DNA of 25,159 bases from a virus. Below, piece after piece: positions 1,312 to 13,427 of the stretch. Location of the stretch: positions 1 to 25,159 of the IMG/VR virus record IMGVR_UViG_3300048996_000069; one strand, given 5' to 3'. The notes under the pieces are model-generated. The model did no database searches. It saw only the letters and a list, made by a program, of their open reading frames with translations, and was not told where the DNA came from. How positions within the stretch are numbered: position 1 is the stretch's first letter; every line of letters begins with the position of its first letter. The translations under genes were made by a program, and so were the position numbers.

Positions 1312-2214
1312 TCAGAACGAACCGTGTGCGGGGTACCACTTGATTGTAGCTGAGCCTGTGCCCTCAGCGGAATTGCCCCGGAAGCCGAAGCTCTGGTGGC
1401 CAGGCTTCAGTACGATGTCGCGCAGGCGGGTGCGCGGGCCGAGCGCGCCGGCGACCGAGGCCCCGGTGCTGCGCAGGACCGTTCGCTTCCACGGGCGCGT
1501 GTCGACCTCGATGTACTGGCCGTCCAGGATCGTGGCGTTCAGGCTGAGCGACCAGTCGTTGTTGAAGAACTGCGGGTTGACCACCGGGCCGTTGAACCGG
1601 ATGATCGGATAGGTCTCCAGAGTGCCGCCCACGAACGCCTCGCCCGGCGAGTAGCCGCCCGGCAGAGTGATGACCGGGAAGACCACCGGGAAGACGAAGC
1701 CACCCTCGGACTCGTAGGCCAGGCCCATGCTCATCGACTCGGGCTCGTCCTCGTAGTACAGCGGGTCGATGATGTCGAAGCTGGCCGTGACCGGGACCAG
1801 GCCGGACAGGAGACGGTTGTCGGGCGGTGCCGCCCAGCGGCGCGGGCGCCCGTAGACGCGCCGATAGCGGCCGCCGACACGGTAGCGTATGACGGCGACC
1901 GCATTCGGCGTCGAGATCACGGAGCGGCCCAGCCAGGCGGTGGCCAGCTCCTGCATCGACGCGAGCGCGTTCTCCTCAGAGTCTCGGTTGACGTGCAGGC
2001 TCCAGGCCCAGGGGGCCGGGCTGAGCACGTCCCGGCCGGTCCGCACCGAGCCGGAGTAGGGATCTTGCTGGTCCTGGGTCAGCCAGGTGCGCGTGCCGGG
2101 ATCGAACCCGTCCGCGTTGCAGGAGACGGGCAGGTGGATGCCGAAGCTGATCCCGGAGTCGGCGTCCTCGGTCGGGAGGAGCTCGAACTGGTGGTCCTTG
2201 AGGACCGTGGTCAT
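1312..2214 (-). CDS. Distal tail (Dit-like) protein
   Basis: The protein has 300 residues. The frame stays open upstream to 2313, but that part lies inside the tape measure gene in another frame. The start MTTVLKDHQFELL at 2214 overlaps the tape measure stop as TGATG and is preceded by GGAAGGGGAAGC. The N-terminal part (residues ~1-150) includes FELLPTEDADSGISFGIHLP, and a later FDIIDPLYYEDEP resembles the end of the first domain of siphovirus tail components. Residues ~170-300 have alternating beta patterns (FPVVFPVITLPGGYS, TYPIIRFNGPVVNP, GQYIEVDTRPWKRTV) typical of the C-terminal domain of siphovirus-type tail component proteins. Its position right after the tape measure gene is the usual place for Dit. 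It probably forms the ring joining the tail tube to the tip. The family call rests on pattern and synteny. Confidence 0.7.
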   Translation of the reverse strand: MTTVLKDHQFELLPTEDADSGISFGIHLPVSCNADGFDPGTRTWLTQDQQDPYSGSVRTGRDVLSPAPWAWSLHVNRDSEENALASMQELATAWLGRSVISTPNAVAVIRYRVGGRYRRVYGRPRRWAAPPDNRLLSGLVPVTASFDIIDPLYYEDEPESMSMGLAYESEGGFVFPVVFPVITLPGGYSPGEAFVGGTLETYPIIRFNGPVVNPQFFNNDWSLSLNATILDGQYIEVDTRPWKRTVLRSTGASVAGALGPRTRLRDIVLKPGHQSFGFRGNSAEGTGSATIKWYPAHGSF

Positions 2215-5200
2215 CAGCTTCCCCTTCCGAAGCGGCGGAGCTCGAACGCGAAGTCGTCCATGACGTCGTCGGCCGTGAGGTCCGAGCCCTCGAAGTGCGG
2301 CTCGTAGTGCCACGACCCATTGCCGCCCTGAGCGTTCATGCGGTCGAACTGGTCGTGAGTGAAGACCGGCTCGGGCTTGCCCGTCAGGTTGACGACCTGG
2401 GTCACGCCGGGCGGCAGGTAGCCGCCCTGGTCGTACATCATCGTCCCGTTGTCCGGCACGACGCCACCATCAGAGTACCAGTTGTGCTCGTTGTGGAAGT
2501 TGAGCGCGTTCTCCGGCGTGCCGTAGCGGTCCTTGATGTACTGCATGCCGTACTGGGCCTGCAGGCGCGGGTCGCTGGTCTTCTCGCCGTAGGCGCCCCA
2601 GGTGCCGTCGAGGAACTGGAACAGGCCGAAGGCCGAGCTGCTCGGGTTCTTCGCGTTCGGGTTCCAGCTGGACTCCTTCTGCACGAGCTTGCTGAGCGCG
2701 TCCCACTGGCCGCCGGTCCACCCGAAGGCGTTCTCGGCGAGCTTCTGGACCATGCCCTTGATGCCCTTCTCGTCCGACGGGCCGCCGGTGATGAAGTCGG
2801 TGACGCCGGAGATCATGTTGCTCATGGTCTGCATGATCGACTCGGGGATCGACTTCAGCAGCTGGGTCAGCGAGTTGTCGCCCCAGGTCTTGGTAAGCTC
2901 CTCGAACTTGCCGGTGATCTTGCCCTTGAGGTAGTCGATCGGGTGCGAGATCGCGTCGCTGACCCAGCCGGCGATGCTGCCGATGCCACCGACGAGCTTG
3001 CCCAGCAGGCTCCGGTCCTTGCCGACGTCCGGGCCGTCATCCTTGCCGCCCAGTCCGTCGCCGCCGTTGAAGTACGACGTGACCTGCTTCTTGGCCTCGG
3101 GGCTCGCGGTCGGGTCGCCGATTGCAACGGCGTGGATGTGGTCGTTCCAGGGGCCCTGGCTGCGGTCACGGTGCCAGGCGGCGAAGCCGGACATGCGCAG
3201 CGCCACGACGTCGGCGACCTTGCCGATCCAGGCGAGGTCGAGCACGCCACCGCCGGAGTGGGTACCGAAGGAGGCGGCGACCGAGTTGGAGTACGAGCCC
3301 TGGGTGACGGTGAAGGCGTGGCCGGCCAGGCGCTCGGCGGCCTGCAGGATCCGGACGGTGTAGAAGTCCATCGCCTTGCCGTGGTACGTGGTACGGTCCC
3401 AGTCGCCGAAGGCGTTGTTGGTCCGCTTGCCGCCGCCGAGGCCGACGCCCGAGGTGCCGTTCTTGAAGCCGCCCAGGAAGTTCAGGGCGCCCTGAACGCC
3501 GAAGTTCTTGGCCCGCTTGTTCGCCGCGTCGATCCAGTTCGAGCCGAGCGCGCGGCTGAGCTCCGGGCGCAGGATAGCCTCGCCACCTCCCACAGCGATG
3601 ATCTGGTTATCCCGGCCCGGAGTGTAGCCAGGCCGCACTCCATACGTGGCGTCAGGGACGCGCGACGTGCCGTTGGCGAACGGAAGGACGATGTCTTCGA
3701 TGTGCTTCAGGCCCGGCAGGACCGTGCCGAGCTTGTTGAACCCGGCGATGATGCCCTTGTTGATCACGGTCTCGACGACGAACTTGACCGGGCTCTTGGC
3801 CAGGTCGATCAGGCCGTCCCAGATGCTCTGGATGAACCCGATGGCGCTCTCGAAGGCGCCGACCAGGCCACCACCGTCCTTGGCGCCCTTGTCGTCCAGG
3901 CCGAGCGCGTGGGCGATGGCGTTGAAGATCGGCTTGATGCCGTTGTCGTAGACCCACTTGAAGCCGTCGCCCATCTTGCCGAAGGCCGTGCCGATGTCGT
4001 CGATGGCGGGCTTGACGAAGACATCGTACAGACTGGTGAAGATCTGGCCGAAGACGTCGAGGACCGGGAAGATTACGTCGTCCCAGGCGGCCTTGATGTC
4101 GGAGCCCATGTCGGTGAACAGCTTGCCCAGAGCCGACAGGATCGGCTGGGCGTACTTGGTCCAGAAGTCGGAGATGCTGCTCGCGAAGTCACTGAAGAAC
4201 GGCTTGATGCCCTTCTCCCAGACGTACTTCAGCGCGTTATAGAAGGCGATCGTGTACGTGACCGCCAGGCTGATCCAGCCGCTGATGGTCTGCAGCGCGG
4301 ACACCAGGATGAACTGGATGACCGGCCAGACCTCGTCGACGATCTTCTTGACGTCGGCGTTGGTGTTGTAGAAGTAGATGAGCGCGCCCACGACTGCGGC
4401 GACGGCCAGCGCGATCAGACCCAGCGGGCCCGAAGCGACCTGAACCAGGACCAGCGCACCGGAGAGCAGCTGGAACGCGCCGACCAGCTCGAGGACCGTC
4501 AGGACGATGGCGCCGAGGACCTGGGGGTCCATGTTGGCCACGAAGGTCAGGAAGCCGGTGATCCCGGCCAGCAGGGTGTCGCCGAATGGGGCCAGGCCGA
4601 CGGCCAAGTTCTTGACCGCGCCGACCAGTGCCTTGAAGAAGTCCTTCACGTCCGGCGCGATGTCGCGGACGTAGCCGAGGAAGTCGGTCATCGACTTCTG
4701 GCCGGCCTTGCTCTTAGTCCAGTTCAGCACCGAGTCGGACCAGTCGGCGAACGCCTCAGCCATCTCCAGCGCGATCGGCGCCAGGCCGACGGCGATGACA
4801 GCAAAGATCGTCAGCCAGTCGAGGAACGCCTTGCCGAAGTCCTTGGTGAGCACAGGCGCGATGTCGGCGATGGTCTTCCAGAAGGCGTCCCAGGTCGGGT
4901 TGGTGAAGACCTTGGCGGCCTGCACGGCGAGGTCACCGAACAGCGTGGCCATGTCGCCGATGAACGTCTTGAAGTCCGGGCCGACGCCGTCCATCAGGAT
5001 CTGGATGGCCTCGGTCAGCTTCGGCAGGAAGGCTTCCTGGATGATGTCGCGGATCTCGGTGAAGTCATCACGCAGCCCGTGGATGAACAGCGCGAACGCC
5101 TGACCGGCCGGGCCGAGCTTGCCCATCTCCTCGGCGACCTTCTGCGCCGACGTCGACGTGTCCTTCAGCGAGTCGTTGTAGTCTTCTTGCGCCTGGCGCA

Positions 5201-7103
5201 GGTTCAGCGTGGCGTCGGCGATGGCCTGCTGGCCGTCGACACCGGCGCGGCGCTGCGCTTCGAGCGCGTCCTTGATCTGGTCGGCGCCATCCACGCGCGC
5301 GCGGGTGACGGCCTTGTCGGCGTCACCCAGGTCGCGGAGCGCGTCCTTCTGGGCCTGGAGCGCCTCGGTGACCTTCTCCTGGGCGGTCTTGACCTTCTGC
5401 GAGTTGTCGACGCCGCCCTTGGCCTGGTCCTTTAGCTCCTTGCTCTGCTTCCGGATCTCCTCGAGCCGCAGCTTGGCCTCGGCCAGCTGGATGGAGGCCT
5501 GCTCCTTGTCGAGGTTGGTCGCGCCGGGGTCCTTGCGGGCCGCCGTGTCCGCCACTGTGGCGTTGAACAGGTCGATGACACCCTGGCGCTCGTCCAGCGC
5601 GTTCCGGCGCTGCTGGAGGGCGATGTCGTCGAGTTCCTTCTGCGCGTCGACGCGGGCCTGCGTCAGGTCGCGCTGGGCGTCGGCAGCAGACTTCTGGGTC
5701 TGCGCGAACCGGCGCTCGGCATCTTCCTGCTGACGGATGGCGCTCTCGATCGAGTCGGCGGCCGACTGGCGGGCGTCGGCCACGCGCTTGCTGGCGTCCT
5801 GGTTGCGCTGGGCCGAGTCCTCGACGGCGCGCGACAGGGACCGCTCAGCGTCGGCGACCTGACGGGCGGCAGCCTTCTGGCGCTTGGCGGCAGCCTCCGC
5901 GTCCTTGGCGGCGTTGTCCTGCTGGTCATTCAGCGCCTTGATGGCGCCGCCCAGTCCGGAGAACGCGACGGCCAGGATCCCGAGGCCGGCTACGCCAGCG
6001 ATGGCCGCGACGGCAAGACCCCCGATGCCGACCGACAGCGTGGCGATGATCGGGATAAGGGCAGCGCCGATGCTGGCGATGGCCAGCGCGGCGAAGTTGA
6101 AGAAGCGGAACGAGTTGGCAGCGTCCTTGCCGTCGACGCCGATCTTGGCCAGCATGCGGTCGACGAGGCTCAGCTGCGTGGTCGCCTTGGCGGCGCCGTC
6201 GACGTCGACCTTGACGCGGGCACGCTTGCCGTCCAGCTTCTCGCGGGCGCGCTCGACAGACTCCAGCGCGGCCAGCGCGTCAGATGCGTCACCGTGGATC
6301 TGGACCTCGGTCGTCGTGGCGACCAGGTGCGCGAGGTCGCGCTCGATCTTCTGGATCTCCTGCTCGGCATCCTTGCCGGAGACGTCGATCCCGATCTTCT
6401 TCAGGTTGAGCGACTGGAGCCGGGCCTGGAGCTCCTGGAGCTCGCGACTGCCCGAGGTGCCGATGGCGGACATGGCCTTGCTCAGGCGGTCCTTCAGCTT
6501 CTTCTCGAAGCTGCCCAGCTGCCGCTCGGCCTGGGCGGTGTCGACCTTGATCTCGACCGTGGGGTTCAGGCCGTCGACGTACTTCTCGAACGACTTGGCG
6601 GCCGCGATCGCCGGGGCTGCGTCACCCTTGATCTCGACCGTGCTGTCCTTGGTCAGGCGCGCGATAATGGCGGCCGCCTCGGCGACCTTCTCGCGGACCT
6701 CAGTCGTGTCGGCGCCCACCTTGACGGTGTTCCGCTTCGACAGTTCCTTCAGCAGCGCCTGCGCCTTGGCGAGATCTTCGGCCAGATGCTCGTTGTCGAC
6801 GTCCAGCTTGATGGGCTTGATCTCGCGCTGCATCGTCGCGATGGTGCTCTTCAGCTTGGTGCGGAAGGCGCCGGCGTACTTCTCGGCAGCATCGCTACCC
6901 GCCTTGTCGGCGCCCTTGCTGGTCTCTTCGCCGAGGATCTTGTCGATCTTGGCAGAGGCCTTCTTCGCACCCGACTCGGCACCCTTATCCAGGCCCTCCT
7001 CGAGAGCCTTGGCCAGGCCGTCGGCCATTTCCTTGTTCTTGTCCTGGAAGCCCAGGTACGAAGGAACGACCTGGAGGATGATGGTGCCAGCTGAATACGG
7101 CAC
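2214..7103 (-). CDS. Tail tape measure protein with two peptidoglycan-hydrolase-like domains
   Basis: This 1629-residue protein sets tail length and is likely expelled at infection. Residues ~90-310 are helical with short V-K-V-D beta repeats. Residues ~335-390 are strongly hydrophobic. Residues ~395-660 are a charged coiled coil, and further hydrophobic helices lie at ~765-785 and ~860-910. Residues ~1240-1330 carry a metallopeptidase-like pattern (H1282 and D1289 in THSGGGVLDL, then NDHIH at 1320-1324) like M15 peptidases. Residues ~1450-1540 match a soluble lytic transglycosylase (E1477 in KESSWNPNA, then SAFGLFQF). The C-terminus has GGYLPPGVTQVVNLTG (1560-1575). The start is GTG at 7103 with GGAGG at a good distance. 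At ~4.9 kb it predicts a long tail of roughly 240 nm, using the usual 1.5 angstrom per residue. Confidence 0.95.
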   Translation of the reverse strand: MPYSAGTIILQVVPSYLGFQDKNKEMADGLAKALEEGLDKGAESGAKKASAKIDKILGEETSKGADKAGSDAAEKYAGAFRTKLKSTIATMQREIKPIKLDVDNEHLAEDLAKAQALLKELSKRNTVKVGADTTEVREKVAEAAAIIARLTKDSTVEIKGDAAPAIAAAKSFEKYVDGLNPTVEIKVDTAQAERQLGSFEKKLKDRLSKAMSAIGTSGSRELQELQARLQSLNLKKIGIDVSGKDAEQEIQKIERDLAHLVATTTEVQIHGDASDALAALESVERAREKLDGKRARVKVDVDGAAKATTQLSLVDRMLAKIGVDGKDAANSFRFFNFAALAIASIGAALIPIIATLSVGIGGLAVAAIAGVAGLGILAVAFSGLGGAIKALNDQQDNAAKDAEAAAKRQKAAARQVADAERSLSRAVEDSAQRNQDASKRVADARQSAADSIESAIRQQEDAERRFAQTQKSAADAQRDLTQARVDAQKELDDIALQQRRNALDERQGVIDLFNATVADTAARKDPGATNLDKEQASIQLAEAKLRLEEIRKQSKELKDQAKGGVDNSQKVKTAQEKVTEALQAQKDALRDLGDADKAVTRARVDGADQIKDALEAQRRAGVDGQQAIADATLNLRQAQEDYNDSLKDTSTSAQKVAEEMGKLGPAGQAFALFIHGLRDDFTEIRDIIQEAFLPKLTEAIQILMDGVGPDFKTFIGDMATLFGDLAVQAAKVFTNPTWDAFWKTIADIAPVLTKDFGKAFLDWLTIFAVIAVGLAPIALEMAEAFADWSDSVLNWTKSKAGQKSMTDFLGYVRDIAPDVKDFFKALVGAVKNLAVGLAPFGDTLLAGITGFLTFVANMDPQVLGAIVLTVLELVGAFQLLSGALVLVQVASGPLGLIALAVAAVVGALIYFYNTNADVKKIVDEVWPVIQFILVSALQTISGWISLAVTYTIAFYNALKYVWEKGIKPFFSDFASSISDFWTKYAQPILSALGKLFTDMGSDIKAAWDDVIFPVLDVFGQIFTSLYDVFVKPAIDDIGTAFGKMGDGFKWVYDNGIKPIFNAIAHALGLDDKGAKDGGGLVGAFESAIGFIQSIWDGLIDLAKSPVKFVVETVINKGIIAGFNKLGTVLPGLKHIEDIVLPFANGTSRVPDATYGVRPGYTPGRDNQIIAVGGGEAILRPELSRALGSNWIDAANKRAKNFGVQGALNFLGGFKNGTSGVGLGGGKRTNNAFGDWDRTTYHGKAMDFYTVRILQAAERLAGHAFTVTQGSYSNSVAASFGTHSGGGVLDLAWIGKVADVVALRMSGFAAWHRDRSQGPWNDHIHAVAIGDPTASPEAKKQVTSYFNGGDGLGGKDDGPDVGKDRSLLGKLVGGIGSIAGWVSDAISHPIDYLKGKITGKFEELTKTWGDNSLTQLLKSIPESIMQTMSNMISGVTDFITGGPSDEKGIKGMVQKLAENAFGWTGGQWDALSKLVQKESSWNPNAKNPSSSAFGLFQFLDGTWGAYGEKTSDPRLQAQYGMQYIKDRYGTPENALNFHNEHNWYSDGGVVPDNGTMMYDQGGYLPPGVTQVVNLTGKPEPVFTHDQFDRMNAQGGNGSWHYEPHFEGSDLTADDVMDDFAFELRRFGRGS

Positions 7104-7152: not shown

Positions 7153-7925
7153 CTATTCCAGCTCCCACGGCGTCAGCTTCGACTGCAGATGACGGAACAC
7201 AGCCAGCTTGCGCTGCATGTCGGCCTGCTTCTGGATCTCTTCGATTACGCTCCCTGGTCGAGTCATGGGCTTGAACTCCGGCGGCTTCCCACCGTTGACG
7301 CCGATCAGCGTGTAGCGGAGCAGCTTGAGCTCGTCGCGGACGCTGGCCAGGGCTTCGACCTCAGGAGACCAGGTCTGCCATCCGGGCGGCGCGTCCTTCT
7401 TGACGTCGTCCTTGTGCGCCTCTCGCCAGGCAACGACCGCCTTCGCGTGGCCCTCGTCCTGCATGAGCTTCGCGTAGTAGTGGCTGTTCTGCGGGAGGTG
7501 ATCGATCAGGTTCAGCAGGTCGCCCCATTCGCGAGCCCGCCACATCTCGCCGACATCCTTGGCGGGGTAGTGGCGGGCGAAGTCCGCTTCGAGCGACCGG
7601 CGGTACTTGCCGATCAGATGACAGAGCCTGCGCCTTTTCCCATTTCCGGGAGCTCGAACTTCTGCGCGTACTTGTCCATGACGCGCTTCAGGTCTTCGAT
7701 CGGGATCGGGTGCTCGCGCAGCCACTCCCGGTCCTCGAGATTGGCGACGTGCTTGAGCAGCTCGATCGGCTGCTGCATCTCGGCCAGGATTTTCCAGTCG
7801 ACCCGGTTGGGGTCGCTGAGCGTGATGACGCGGCCTTCGAGCTTGAACCGGAACACGCCACGGTTCTTGACCTCGAGCGCGTCGAGGTCGAAGTCGAGCT
7901 GTTCATCGAGCGGTGCAGGAGACAT
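7153..7925 (-). CDS. Tail assembly chaperone long form (GT-like), made by -1 frameshift
   Basis: The inferred 257-residue product joins 97 residues of the first chaperone frame (7925-7635) to 160 residues of the overlapping frame (7635-7153), re-reading base 7635. The downstream frame has no good start of its own: its open part extends upstream to 7725 only as shadow sequence with no sensible protein. After the slip the product reads RRRLCHLIGKYRRSLEADFA and continues through WGDLLNLIDHLPQNSHYYAK, ending in TPWELE. This region binds the tape measure protein in related phages (lambda GT). The gene lies 49 bp upstream of the tape measure start, the canonical position. The two-frame architecture and slippery site are seen directly; the frameshift itself is inferred. 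Confidence 0.88.
7614..7925 (-). CDS. Tail assembly chaperone short form (G-like)
   Basis: This 103-residue protein starts MSPAPLDEQLDFDLDALEVK and ends with GKGAGSVI. It corresponds to the unshifted chaperone that polymerises around the tape measure protein during tail assembly. It is acidic at the N-terminus, with a beta-like core (GVFRFKLEGRVITLSDPNRV) followed by helices (WKILAEMQQPIELLKHVANL). The size and fold pattern fit TAC proteins of actinophages. The start is ATG at 7925 with a weak purine-rich site upstream (GAAAGAAG). The stop TGA at 7616-7614 lies 19 bases past the slippery heptamer, so most ribosomes would finish here and a minority would make the long form. Confidence 0.88.
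   Translation of the reverse strand: MSPAPLDEQLDFDLDALEVKNRGVFRFKLEGRVITLSDPNRVDWKILAEMQQPIELLKHVANLEDREWLREHPIPIEDLKRVMDKYAQKFELPEMGKGAGSVI
7635..7641 (-). other. -1 ribosomal frameshift slippery heptamer GGGAAAA
   Basis: Reading leftward, the chaperone frame is ATG GGA AAA G, so the heptamer G GGA AAA has the canonical X XXY YYZ phase. It is nearly the lambda G/GT site (GGGAAAG). A one-base slip leads into AGG CGC AGG and the 160-codon downstream frame. The last codons of the short frame (GGC GCA GGC TCT GTC ATC TGA) follow. I see no clear stimulatory stem or pseudoknot immediately downstream. Confidence 0.85.
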
Positions 7926-9490: not shown

Positions 9491-9834
9491 AGCTTACCTC
9501 CCATCGGAACGTGCCACTTGAACGCCACCTTGCCCAGCCAGCGCTTGGGTGCCTGGTACTTGCCGCCGAACTCCTCCGGGGCGGCGCCGGGATGTTCGCT
9601 GTAGACCTCAGCGCCAACGCGGGGAGCCCCGCCCAGCACAACGGGCGCGGTCTTGTCGTTGACCTGGTACGAGTCGGCCAGGTGCTCGCCGGAGTGGGCC
9701 GACCGGTGCACGGTGACCTTCAGCTCGGCCACGATGTCCTTGGCGGCCTCAACGCAGGGCTTGCGCGCCTGCTCCGAGTTCATGAAGGCGGCCATGCCCT
9801 TCAGGTCCTTCTTGTAGATCGCCTTGACCGGCAT
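9487..9834 (-). CDS. HK97 gp10-like neck/tail completion protein
   Basis: The protein has 115 residues and starts MPVKAIYKKDLKGMAAFMNS at 9834, where ATG overlaps the previous stop as TGATG. The frame remains open to 10002 upstream, but that stretch is the stopper gene in another frame. The N-terminal helix (AARKDIVAE-type, residues ~20-45) is followed by strands and the stretch VYSEHPGAAPEEFGGKYQAP. This fits the V...H..A...EFG pattern of HK97 gp10-like proteins. The C-terminus is basic (KRWLGKVAFKWHVPMGGKL). It likely sits at the head-tail joint. The role is inferred from family resemblance and gene order. Confidence 0.65.
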   Translation of the reverse strand: MPVKAIYKKDLKGMAAFMNSEQARKPCVEAAKDIVAELKVTVHRSAHSGEHLADSYQVNDKTAPVVLGGAPRVGAEVYSEHPGAAPEEFGGKYQAPKRWLGKVAFKWHVPMGGKL

Positions 9835-10154
9835 CAGCTGACTCCCTTCAGAACGATGAGGATGTGCATCTCGCCGCCCAGCGGATACTCCAGCGGGCGG
9901 CCTTCGATCGCGTACTCCTGGCCAGCATAGACGACGCGGTCGCGCGCCTTCGGGATCGGCTTTGCAGTCGTGATCTTCTCGGGCTGGATGTAGACGTTCC
10001 ACCCCTCGACCGGGATTCCGCCGCGCTCGAGCTCGTCGTTGGTCCGCGACCAGACGATGACCTCCTTGAAGTCGTACGGCGTGCCCCAGGAGGGGTCGCC
10101 GTGATCGTCCTCGCCGTCCCAGACCTTGATGGTGACCTGCTGCGTTCCGTCCAT
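9834..10154 (-). CDS. Head-tail stopper
   Basis: This 106-residue protein starts ATG at 10154, overlapping the stop of the deacetylase-fibre gene. The sequence (MDGTQQVTIKVWDGEDDHGD, then YDFKEVIVWSRTNDELERGG, then PIPKARDRVVYAGQEYAIEG) is a compact beta-barrel-like pattern. The stretch DRV.Y.G.EY.IEG.P is typical of head-closure or stopper proteins, which seal the connector after packaging. Its coupling by overlap to genes on both sides indicates one translational unit with the neck genes. The assignment is mainly by synteny and size. Confidence 0.65.
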   Translation of the reverse strand: MDGTQQVTIKVWDGEDDHGDPSWGTPYDFKEVIVWSRTNDELERGGIPVEGWNVYIQPEKITTAKPIPKARDRVVYAGQEYAIEGRPLEYPLGGEMHILIVLKGVS

Positions 10155-11848
10155 CAGCTGAACGCCCCCCAGCGGCTCTCGCCGACCCACATGCGGTCGA
10201 CCCACATGTCGCCGGACTCGGCGTTCATCTCGGGTCGGATGATGATGTTCGTGGCGTTGACGTCGGCAGTGAACGTCGTACTGAACAGGACCCAGGTGGT
10301 CGACGTGACGCCGGTGGCCGCCAGAACCGAGCTGATGTTGCCCGAGGCGTTGGCGCCGTTCTTCTGGCCGTACTGCAGGACCCGGATCGAGCAGCGAGAC
10401 GCGCCGGCCAGGTTGGCCACGCGTGCCCGCATCGAGACGGTGTAGACCCGGCCGGGGACGAAGTCGACGAACTCCTGGCTGAGGTAGGTCGAGTTGGCTA
10501 CGTTGGTGTTCGTCAGGTGGACCACCTTGGCGCCGCCGAGGTCGGTCGGGGTCTCGGTCTCGATCGTCGCCGTGCCGGTCGGGGCCGACAGGTTCCACGG
10601 GTGGATCAGGCCGGACTCGAACCGGGAGTTGACGAAGCCGCCGCCCATCGGAAAGGCGTCCTGGGTCCGCATGACCGGGATGCCCAGGTCGCGTGCGATG
10701 TCCATGGCCTCGATGTACTGAGCCATCGTCGGGTTGCCGACCGAGTCTGCGTCGTGGCCGTACGACGTCAGGATCTTCGGCTGGTACTGCAGGGACCGGA
10801 GCTCGGCCAGGAACTGAGCGTGCGTCGTGTCCGACCAGGGGAAGCGGCCGTGGCGGAACGGGCGCGCGTCCTTGGGGTAGGTCCACTGCGTCTTGTTGAA
10901 CGCCTGCGACAGGCCGATGTCGGCGACCCGGTCGTACCAGCCGTACGCCTCCAGGTCCGTGGTGTCGCTCCAGTCGCCGTACGGATAGCAGTAGGACGTC
11001 ACTGCCCCGACGGCCGTCAGGGCCTCCAGGGCGGTCTTGGAGGGCCCGAACTGGGCGGCGCGCAGGGTTGGCGTCGTCTCCGTGGTGGTCATCGAGGTGT
11101 GCGCGACGTTGTGCGAGCCGATCTCGTGGCCAGCGGCGTACGCGGCCGTCACCTGGGCGGCGGTCATCTTGCCGGCGACACCGAGGTTGGCCGTGGTGAT
11201 GTAGAGCGTGCAGAGCTGGCCGCGCGCGGCGTGCGCGGCGGCGAGCGTAGTGTGGCTGCCCCAGCCATCATCGTAGGAGGGAACCCAGACACCAGCGGCC
11301 GGGCGGGCGGCCACGCGGGTCGCTGACCGAGCGGCCAGGGTGACGTCGGTCGCCAGGGCCTTGCCGGGCAGTGCCGCTTCGATCGTGTCCAGGCGGCCGT
11401 CGGTCGAGGCATCCAGGGCGGCCAGTGCGGTGGCGGTCGCCTTCAGGGCCAGGGCGTTGTTGGTCGCCGTCACGAACGCGTCGTACGTCGACTGCGAGAC
11501 CTTCCCGGCCAGTCCGGCAGACAGCGCGGTGGCGTCGGCCTTGAGGTTCAGTGCGGCGTTGACGGTCGACGTGTCGGCCTTGGCGCCCAGCTGGCTGTTG
11601 ACAGTTGTCGTGTCTGCTTTGTTTGCCAGGTCACTCGACACATCCGCCTGCTCCGCCTTGGACGCGACATCCGTAGCCAGGTCGGCCAGGGCGACCTCGA
11701 GCGCGTCGACGTCGGCCTGAAGCTGTGTGATGACCTCGGGGTCGCCGCCGCCCACGACCGCAGCGATCTGCGCCTCGAGGTCGATCTTGAGCGTGTTCAG
11801 ACTGTCCGCCACCACCGAGGTGACGTCCTGGTCAAATCCTTGTGCCAT
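10154..11848 (-). CDS. Fibre-like virion protein with NodB polysaccharide deacetylase domain
   Basis: This 564-residue protein has three parts. Residues ~1-160 are a helical stalk with ~14-residue repeats (KAEQADVSSDLANKAD, TVNSQLGAKADTSTVNAALN, LKADATAL), as in trimeric fibre shafts. Residues ~185-400 match NodB deacetylases: SYDDG at 191-195 (D193, D194), SHNVAH with H246 and H250, SYCYPYGDW at 285-293, and SYGHDAD with H365. Such enzymes remove N- or O-acetyl groups from polysaccharide using a metal held by the Asp and two His. Residues ~405-564 look like a carbohydrate-binding jelly-roll (SRFESGLIHPW, VYTVSMRARVANL). There is no signal peptide, consistent with a virion part. It sits between adaptor and stopper genes, so it may be a neck or head fibre trimming host surface glycan. 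Enzyme activity is inferred. Confidence 0.85.
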   Translation of the reverse strand: MAQGFDQDVTSVVADSLNTLKIDLEAQIAAVVGGGDPEVITQLQADVDALEVALADLATDVASKAEQADVSSDLANKADTTTVNSQLGAKADTSTVNAALNLKADATALSAGLAGKVSQSTYDAFVTATNNALALKATATALAALDASTDGRLDTIEAALPGKALATDVTLAARSATRVAARPAAGVWVPSYDDGWGSHTTLAAAHAARGQLCTLYITTANLGVAGKMTAAQVTAAYAAGHEIGSHNVAHTSMTTTETTPTLRAAQFGPSKTALEALTAVGAVTSYCYPYGDWSDTTDLEAYGWYDRVADIGLSQAFNKTQWTYPKDARPFRHGRFPWSDTTHAQFLAELRSLQYQPKILTSYGHDADSVGNPTMAQYIEAMDIARDLGIPVMRTQDAFPMGGGFVNSRFESGLIHPWNLSAPTGTATIETETPTDLGGAKVVHLTNTNVANSTYLSQEFVDFVPGRVYTVSMRARVANLAGASRCSIRVLQYGQKNGANASGNISSVLAATGVTSTTWVLFSTTFTADVNATNIIIRPEMNAESGDMWVDRMWVGESRWGAFS

Positions 11849-11851
11849 GAG

Positions 11852-12346
11852 TCAGCTCTCAGGGGTGAATGCGTCGGTGAAGCGCGTGTCTCCGTAGTTG
11901 ATCAGCCAGTCCGATCCGGAGCTGTCGGGCAGATTGATCTGGTCGATCTTGGGCTCGTCGCCGCGCGTGGTCGTGATGGTCCACAGGCCGCCGAACGTCT
12001 CGGTGCTGGAGCCCATGCCGTCGAGCTCTTCGGCCTCGGCGTCGGTCAGCTGCATAGCGGCCGCCATCTCGGCGAGCATCGTCTCGGAGATCGGGCCGAC
12101 GCTGGACGAAACGATCGAGCGCCAGTTGGTGTAGGTGCGGGCGGCGACCAGGAGCGCGATGGTACGCGCGCGAGGCGGCACCAGCTCGGGAGTGGCCGGC
12201 CAGGTAGCGGGGATGCCAGCACGGCTGATGACCAGCTCGTCGGCCTTCTCCATGATGAACTGAGCCCTGGGGTCAGCTTCGACCTCGGCCGCGTCCTTCT
12301 TGGTCAGCAGCGCGAGGTGCGCGAGAGTCTCCAGTGTCTCAGCCAT
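11852..12346 (-). CDS. Head-tail adaptor (connector) protein
   Basis: The ATG at 12346 gives 164 residues (MAETLETLAHLALLTKKDAA). The open frame reaches a GTG at 12373, but that lies in the terminator-like hairpin behind the capsid gene, so the shorter form is preferred. Helical segments (AAEVEADPRAQFIMEKADEL, RARTIALLVAARTYTNWRSI) followed by VGPISETMLAEMAAAMQLTD match adaptor proteins of the HK97 gp6/SPP1 gp15 type, which dock under the portal. The C-terminal third is less regular. It follows the capsid gene directly, the standard place for the first connector gene. Family membership is inferred from the pattern and order. Confidence 0.75.
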   Translation of the reverse strand: MAETLETLAHLALLTKKDAAEVEADPRAQFIMEKADELVISRAGIPATWPATPELVPPRARTIALLVAARTYTNWRSIVSSSVGPISETMLAEMAAAMQLTDAEAEELDGMGSSTETFGGLWTITTTRGDEPKIDQINLPDSSGSDWLINYGDTRFTDAFTPES

Positions 12347-12410: not shown

Positions 12411-13427
12411 TCAGTCCAGGACCGAACCGGTGCCGGAGAAGGTGAAGCGGACCATGCGGACGTTCTTCCGCGTACCGACCGGGTTGATGGTGACACCCAC
12501 CGGGTACTCGTCGTCGTCCAGGTCGCCGTCCTCGTAGATCCACTTGCCGTCGGCGGTGCGCTCGTCACGCACGTCGTTCAGGCCGAGGAAGCTCGACACG
12601 ATCGAACGGTCCCGGAGGTAGTTCGAGTCGTAGTCGTAGATCAGGCGCATCGCGTAGCCGTTGGAGCTGAGCTGCGCACCCGCGACCACACCGTTCGGGA
12701 TGACCGGCGAGATGTTCGCGAGCAGGAGCGCCGACGGGGACAGGTAGTAGCCCTCGTTCGGGTTCAGGCCGTTGTGCTCGATGACCACGGAACCGGCGAG
12801 CCGGCCGATGATCGCGTCGCGCAGGGCCGGGGTGCCGGTCTCACCGGTGCTGTTGTACTGCGACAGGCGGTCGCTGGCGAGCCAGGCAGCCGCGATGTCG
12901 GAGCCGATGAGGAAGACACGGCCGCCGGTGGGGGCGACCTTCTTCGCATCCAGCACGCGCTTGGCCTCGACGGCCGCGAGGTGCGGGTCGGTGTCGAGGT
13001 CCGGGGTGAGGATGAGGCTGGAGTGCACCGCAGCGCCACGGAGGCCTGCGACGACCTTCGCCTCGTAGTCGGCAGCGATGGCCTCGGTCTGCGGGCCGAC
13101 CACGTCGGTCGCCAGCTGGATCTCGTCCATCGTCAGGTGCTCGTCGGTCAGCGCGGTGGCCGAGTAGACGTGCTTGTTGAGCTTGACCGGCATCGAGGCG
13201 AGGCCTTCGATGTCGTCCAGCACGATCGGGTTGTTCCGCGTCCGCCACTCGTAGTCACGCGCGACGGCCCGGAGACCCGGAATGCGCATGTTGACGGTGT
13301 CACCCTTGGCGCCCTTGAAGGCCTCGCCAGACATACGGGTGACGACGTACGGCGCCACCAGCTGACGCTGCAGCAGGGGCAGCGCGTACTGGATGACCTT
13401 CTTCGGCTTGGCCTTGAGAACGGCCAC
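12411..13427 (-). CDS. Major capsid protein, P22-coat-like HK97 fold
   Basis: This 338-residue protein starts VAVLKAKPKKVIQYALPLLQ. The N-terminal half carries RQLVAPYVVTRMSGEAFKGA, GDTVNMRIPGLRAVARDYEW and VKLNKHVYSATALTDEHLTM. This order of motifs (long-axis strand, then VKLNKHVY...LTDEHLT) I recognise from P22 gene 5-like coat proteins of many actinophages. The middle has GGRVFLIGSDIAAAWLASDR, and the C-terminus has beta strands (NGYAMRLIYDYDSNYLRDRS). The start is GTG with a near-perfect Shine-Dalgarno (AGGAGGT) four bases away, fitting very high expression. It follows the scaffold gene, and a hairpin follows it. Confidence 0.92.
   Translation of the reverse strand: MAVLKAKPKKVIQYALPLLQRQLVAPYVVTRMSGEAFKGAKGDTVNMRIPGLRAVARDYEWRTRNNPIVLDDIEGLASMPVKLNKHVYSATALTDEHLTMDEIQLATDVVGPQTEAIAADYEAKVVAGLRGAAVHSSLILTPDLDTDPHLAAVEAKRVLDAKKVAPTGGRVFLIGSDIAAAWLASDRLSQYNSTGETGTPALRDAIIGRLAGSVVIEHNGLNPNEGYYLSPSALLLANISPVIPNGVVAGAQLSSNGYAMRLIYDYDSNYLRDRSIVSSFLGLNDVRDERTADGKWIYEDGDLDDDEYPVGVTINPVGTRKNVRMVRFTFSGTGSVLD

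Follow-up and report, generated by a model that had tools for sequence, protein, structure and literature searches.

What is a gene for a putative sugar-editing enzyme doing among the genes that connect the head of a phage to its tail? The question is raised by IMG/VR record IMGVR_UViG_3300048996_000069, a linear virus record of 25.2 kb that was analysed as a whole (the window, 25,159 nucleotides). An earlier note on this DNA, made from the letters alone, had read one gene between the head-tail adaptor and stopper genes as a repeat-rich stalk followed by a NodB-like domain and a carbohydrate-binding-like domain, and had proposed that the virion carries the product as an enzymatic fibre at the neck or at a capsid vertex. 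Neck fibres with a conserved anchor and swapped tips are already known from the neck passage structures (NPS) of lactococcal phages, as are deacetylases on tailspikes and tail fibres.

Here we present a computational follow-up of the gene, its product and its relatives. We think it fairly likely that the product is a virion fibre attached to the neck, on the head-tail adaptor ring or beside it, and made of an anchor, an oligomeric and probably trimeric stalk and a tip that combines a NodB/CE4 deacetylase with a carbohydrate-binding module (CBM). What is new is the intact NodB domain on a predicted neck fibre, the fusion of adaptor and stalk in relatives, and, within an actinobacteriophage group, a fixed anchor on which tips are exchanged.

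The fibre gene and its neighbours

The record holds a siphovirus-type late operon on the minus strand, with genes in the order terminase large subunit, portal (phrog_104, E=1e-81), MuF-like head protein, scaffold, major capsid protein (12411-13427; phrog_283, E=7e-33), head-tail adaptor (11852-12346; a weak match to the phrog_137 connector family, E=0.001) and the fibre gene. These are followed by the stopper (9834-10157), a small neck gene, the tail terminator (phrog_123, E=7e-11), the major tail protein (phrog_476, E=8e-54), the tail chaperones and the tape measure. The terminase, chaperones, tape measure and stopper are named by position and likeness. For the stopper the likeness is to L008:11445-11753 and to a gene of L010, two related contigs described below; it has no NCBIfam match, and a stopper scan of IMG/VR gave none. 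The virus appears to be actinobacteriophage-like, and its capsid and portal relatives together with a G+C content of 66% point to an actinobacterial host.

The fibre gene (10154-11848, minus strand) encodes 564 amino acids, from an ATG at 11848 to a stop codon at 10154-10156. It fits tightly between its neighbours, as had been noted from the sequence: it begins 3 nt past the stop of the adaptor gene, whose frame it shares (GAG AGC TGA CTC ATG), and its stop overlaps the stopper start (TGATG). Programmed stop readthrough from adaptor into fibre across the in-frame TGA CTC ATG was considered and set aside, because in the relatives L008 and L009 the two frames differ and the genes overlap by 1 nt.

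Two other features of the operon are recorded here. The tail-assembly-chaperone frames overlap (7153-7925, minus strand) with a slippery GGGAAAA near 7640, as expected for an ordinary -1 programmed frameshift, and the tape measure protein (2214-7103, minus strand) ends in a C-terminal SLT transglycosylase domain.

Stalk, NodB and carbohydrate-binding domains

All three parts that the earlier note had described in the protein stood up to analysis. The repeat-rich stalk, placed by that note at residues ~1-160, has a period of 13 residues: lysines at residues 64, 77, 90, 103 and 116 are exactly 13 apart, and the lag-13 self-identity of 26 matches was equalled in 0 of 10,000 shuffles. We delimit an N-terminal anchor and predicted helical stalk at residues 1-175 (11324-11848, minus strand), a part common to L008 and L009 at the same locus; a stalk profile found no match among solved structures. 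At the other end, residues 405-541 (10226-10636, minus strand) match CBM_4_9 (PF02018, E=1.5e-8, above the Pfam cut-off) and are beta-rich in a low-confidence full-length model. This full-length single-sequence AF2 model (mean pLDDT 38) was unusable and was kept out of the fold searches.

Between stalk and CBM lies the NodB-like domain, residues 187-400 (10649-11290, minus strand), recognised by Pfam, conserved motifs, AF2 and fold search. Residues 187-298 match PF01522 with E=1.1e-11 and 45.2 bits, against a cut-off of 23.1; the whole-record search gave E=1.7e-14. Motif 1 (D193-D194, codons 11272-11267) and the H-x3-H of motif 2 (H246, 11113-11111; H250, 11101-11099; all minus strand) are intact, at the residues named beforehand. 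When 10 bacterial NodB proteins found by searching genomes (best E=2.5e-14, 37% identity) were aligned with the domain, none of them varied in these columns. H365 (10756-10754, minus strand), in ILTSYGHD, stands where the histidine of CE4 motif 5 is expected, a place that the 10 aligned relatives stop short of. One point against lies in motif 3, where another residue replaces the arginine usual before the proline (SYCYPYG). This arginine occurs in many CE4 members, not all. Since the bacterial relatives likewise lack it, with Phe-Ala/Cys-Tyr-Pro at that place, its absence leaves CE4 membership open to the fibre domain.

The fold search that the earlier note had called for, run on a model of the NodB domain, recovered the NodB barrel. 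AF2 modelled residues 178-400 with pLDDT 71 and pTM 0.75 from an alignment of 6 sequences that left out the bacterial NodB relatives. In VIA-align the closest solved structure was the turret head of the archaeal virus HFTV1 (8qpg, Z 18.2, 194 residues, 14% identity). Next came bacterial CE4 deacetylases; PdaC reached Z 17.1 and PgdA Z 16.5, and enzymes that deacetylate peptidoglycan, chitin and xylan lay at Z 13-17. The best 25 rows all have the polysaccharide-deacetylase fold, the HFTV1 turret included, at Z 15.2-18.2 over 177-199 residues. Foldseek gives the same fold; phmmer against PDB sequences returned only a weak chitin deacetylase match. By profile, by motifs 1 and 2 and by its modelled deformed (beta/alpha) barrel, the domain thus belongs to the NodB/CE4 family, and the tip is a probable polysaccharide deacetylase.

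A NodB fold can also serve without catalysis, and the domain might be a lectin, a pseudoenzyme on a neck fibre that deacetylates nothing. Such cases exist nearby: the NodB-fold tip of the neck fibre of lactococcal phage phi7 lacks the full DD and H-x3-H motifs, a NodB protein of an unrelated phage (L067) has Asn for the second metal histidine, and CE4 pseudoenzymes occur among the fold matches (BA3943). In the fibre, however, all four metal or catalytic positions tested are intact, and the protein already has a separate CBM with which to hold sugar. We therefore regard a sugar-binding pseudoenzyme as quite unlikely and treat the tip as a putative active deacetylase.

One slot, exchangeable tips

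The major capsid protein was used as the query to find related IMG/VR contigs (L008-L011, picked by nearest capsid protein), with capsid identities of about 82-90% (90% in L008, 87% in L009 and 83% in L010). A further contig, L016, was found through the adaptor (63% identity). L008 and L009 carry, in the slot between adaptor and stopper, a fibre whose anchor and stalk match those of our protein (identity over 178 residues 59% and 55%) but whose C-terminus is unrelated and is not NodB; a second gene is also present at the slot. The tip is thus an exchangeable part on a fixed anchor and stalk encoded in the connector module.

L010 and L016 have another arrangement. Here the adaptor runs on in frame into a repeat stalk at its C-terminus (L010:3521-4327 and L016:7992-8891), and a separate gene follows with a 1-nt overlap. 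In L010 this gene encodes a LamG lectin domain (PF13385, E=7e-13); by eye, the corresponding gene of L016 resembles it. The fused stalk of L010 is related to that of L016, and both show a weaker relationship to the stalk of the fibre gene.

Some phages have nothing of the kind at this place. In five related isolated phages whose connector genes are annotated (Attoomi, Amethyst, Sycamore, Bromden and Neville) the stopper or the next connector gene directly follows the adaptor, and a sixth related isolate, vB_MoxS-R1, has no large gene at the adaptor slot. The more distant L021 and L022 also lack such a fibre directly behind the capsid and adaptor genes. The adjacency of adaptor and stopper in other actinophages therefore indicates that the fibre is an inserted optional module.

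Where on the particle would it sit? When neighbouring genes stand apart in part of a group but form a single fused gene elsewhere in it, this is a classic sign that their products associate physically. Since adaptor and stalk are separate in some relatives and fused in others, the most likely place of the fibre is on the adaptor and so at the neck. Of the two locations named by the earlier note, the neck thus gains support from the fusions and from gene order; the capsid vertex received no direct support.

The fibre could also belong elsewhere on the virion, at the tail tip or on the capsid surface as a fibre or turret, its gene lying in the connector module by chance. KAD repeats like those of the stalk are also present in tail fibres of other phages, which counts against the neck, so that the stalk alone is no proof of location; stalk-like repeats are found as well in a PHROG named minor head protein. 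The nearest solved NodB domain is on capsid turrets, and in Arthrobacter phages Mudcat and Adaia proteins with a NodB fold carry the name of minor tail proteins. Two relatives whose stalk is fused to the adaptor argue against this, as does the distribution of the stalk itself. A scan for the 13-residue lysine repeats, which took in the whole L008 contig (46.7 kb) and 60 of the 61.8 kb of L016, both with tail-tip genes, detected one stalk in each contig, at the adaptor slot only, and none in the large tail-tip ORFs of L008 and L016 (the shorter fused stalk of L010 fell under the detection rule). A site away from the neck is on this evidence unlikely.

It is highly improbable that the protein lies outside the virion, as a soluble enzyme or the product of a cargo gene inserted in the late operon, and acts to modify the host surface or to aid lysis. 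Several other viral NodB proteins (L061, L062 and L063) do stand alone, without a fibre stalk, and they offered no clue to placement, but the protein studied here has stalk and anchor, relatives in the same slot and an adaptor fusion among them, and its N-terminus looks like that of a fibre, inspection by eye showing no signal peptide. From these features we infer that the protein is part of the virion and attached at the neck.

The combination of NodB and stalk is known from one sequence, since protein, motif and plasmid searches returned nothing further. There was no NodB tip in the seven related viral contigs searched, no tblastn match to the fibre protein in 50,697 phage records, no relative in whole-protein motif scans of IMG/VR and GTDB genome contigs, and no significant match to the NodB and CBM part in 72,556 plasmids.

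Comparison with known virion fibres and proposed role

The earlier note knew of no described system with an enzyme so placed. This was too strong: NPS genes occupy the same neighbourhood, the phi7 tip has a NodB fold, and HFTV1 carries a NodB-like domain on its capsid turrets (PMC12494034).

Of the lactococcal phages of the 936 group that were analysed, about two thirds have NPS, which combine a nearly identical N-terminus of ~180 residues with seven kinds of C-terminus, several of them sugar-binding (PMC6669499). The related fibre of TP901-1 has been seen at the neck by electron microscopy (PMC6669499, PMC10747895), and how lactococcal NPS attach is unknown (PMC10747895). The NPS gene is part of the connector module, located after the capsid gene and long before that of the tape measure. 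The likeness to our fibre is considerable: an optional connector-module fibre with a conserved anchor, a helical stalk and swappable carbohydrate-binding C-termini (PMC6669499). However, the NPS anchor is a BppU-type domain (PF10651), found in the NPS proteins of P680, phi7, fd13 and jm2 with E of 1e-22 to 1e-24, whereas Pfam gave no BppU_N match in the fibre protein. The NPS gene is also further downstream in the connector module, not between adaptor and stopper, and adaptor fusion, present in L010 and L016, was not seen for NPS; nor did a literature search find published adaptor-fused fibres. The fibre would thus work like an NPS, yet it is not a member because it lacks the BppU anchor.

Among phage records, phi7 alone has a NodB-like NPS tip. 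Its NPS protein (641 aa; KC182552 6850-8775, L069:1851-3776) ends in a NodB-like domain with degenerate metal-site motifs (Foldseek TM 0.70; 19.5 bits in Pfam, under the 23.1 cut-off), in contrast to the full motifs of the fibre domain. The 936 phage paper classed this NPS in group G and matched it to a carbohydrate-esterase module (PMC6669499); in the literature consulted we found no account of a NodB-like phi7 tip with incomplete metal-site motifs.

Other systems share single aspects. The HFTV1 turret head gp31, the nearest solved fold, is a trimeric virion-surface protein with NodB-like and galactose-binding-like domains, but these come in reverse order, a separate base protein (none was noticed among the genes of the window) connects it to capsid hexamers, no stalk of 13-residue repeats is described for it, and the virus is archaeal. 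Acinetobacter phage Aristophanes gp41 and Pectobacterium phage Possum gp66 are virion proteins that deacetylate host polysaccharide at adsorption (PMC8471582, PMC9569702). For these two the action on host polysaccharide has been demonstrated, and they belong to the tail adsorption apparatus, not the neck; the domain of gp66 is of SGNH type. Anabaena phage A-1(L) has fibres joined to the neck by their N-termini and bearing a distal carbohydrate-binding module; they are assembled from several distinct proteins (gp80-82), their CBM failed to bind the host that was tested, and in the parts of that account available to us no deacetylase is reported for the neck fibres (PMC10966104).

A neck fibre with a deacetylase tip might act as follows. 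Residues 1 to ~175 would anchor the fibre and form the helical stalk, keeping the NodB-CBM tip at a distance from the neck. During adsorption the CBM would grip a glycan of the host surface, the presumed substrate, and the NodB domain would strip acetyl groups off it. The particle could thereby stay on the surface layer, roll over it or thin it until the tail tip engages, possibly aiding reversible adsorption and reorientation before tail-tip binding, as proposed for HFTV1 turrets (PMC12494034). If so, the phage particle bears a sugar-editing enzyme at its neck besides the receptor-binding proteins of the tail tip, and the neck fibre offers a plug-in site at which a fixed stalk receives different tips. 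The adaptor-stalk fusions would offer a simple attachment model for neck fibres, and enzyme-bearing adsorption proteins would be worth seeking in head and connector modules, beyond the tail genes.

More tentatively, NodB domains may have been recruited repeatedly to virion sites off the tail tip (this neck, the HFTV1 turret, the degenerate phi7 NPS and the L067 head-module protein). In this group the neck fibre may be built directly on the adaptor ring, in some members by fusion, and glycan editing far from the tail tip may be a general step of adsorption; we hold this wider view with less than even confidence.

Two further loci were noted in passing. In the unrelated phage of L067, a 530-aa NodB protein (L067:5158-6750), the one with Asn at the second metal position, is encoded between head-morphogenesis and head-maturation-protease genes. 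In Microbacterium phage Rowlf, genes 25-26 (L029:5884-8798), the first for a repeat-stalk protein and the second for a PhoD-like phosphatase, lie immediately upstream of the adaptor and possibly encode another enzyme-bearing neck or head fibre. Together they suggest that enzymes and enzyme-like domains in head and neck modules are commoner than usually noted.
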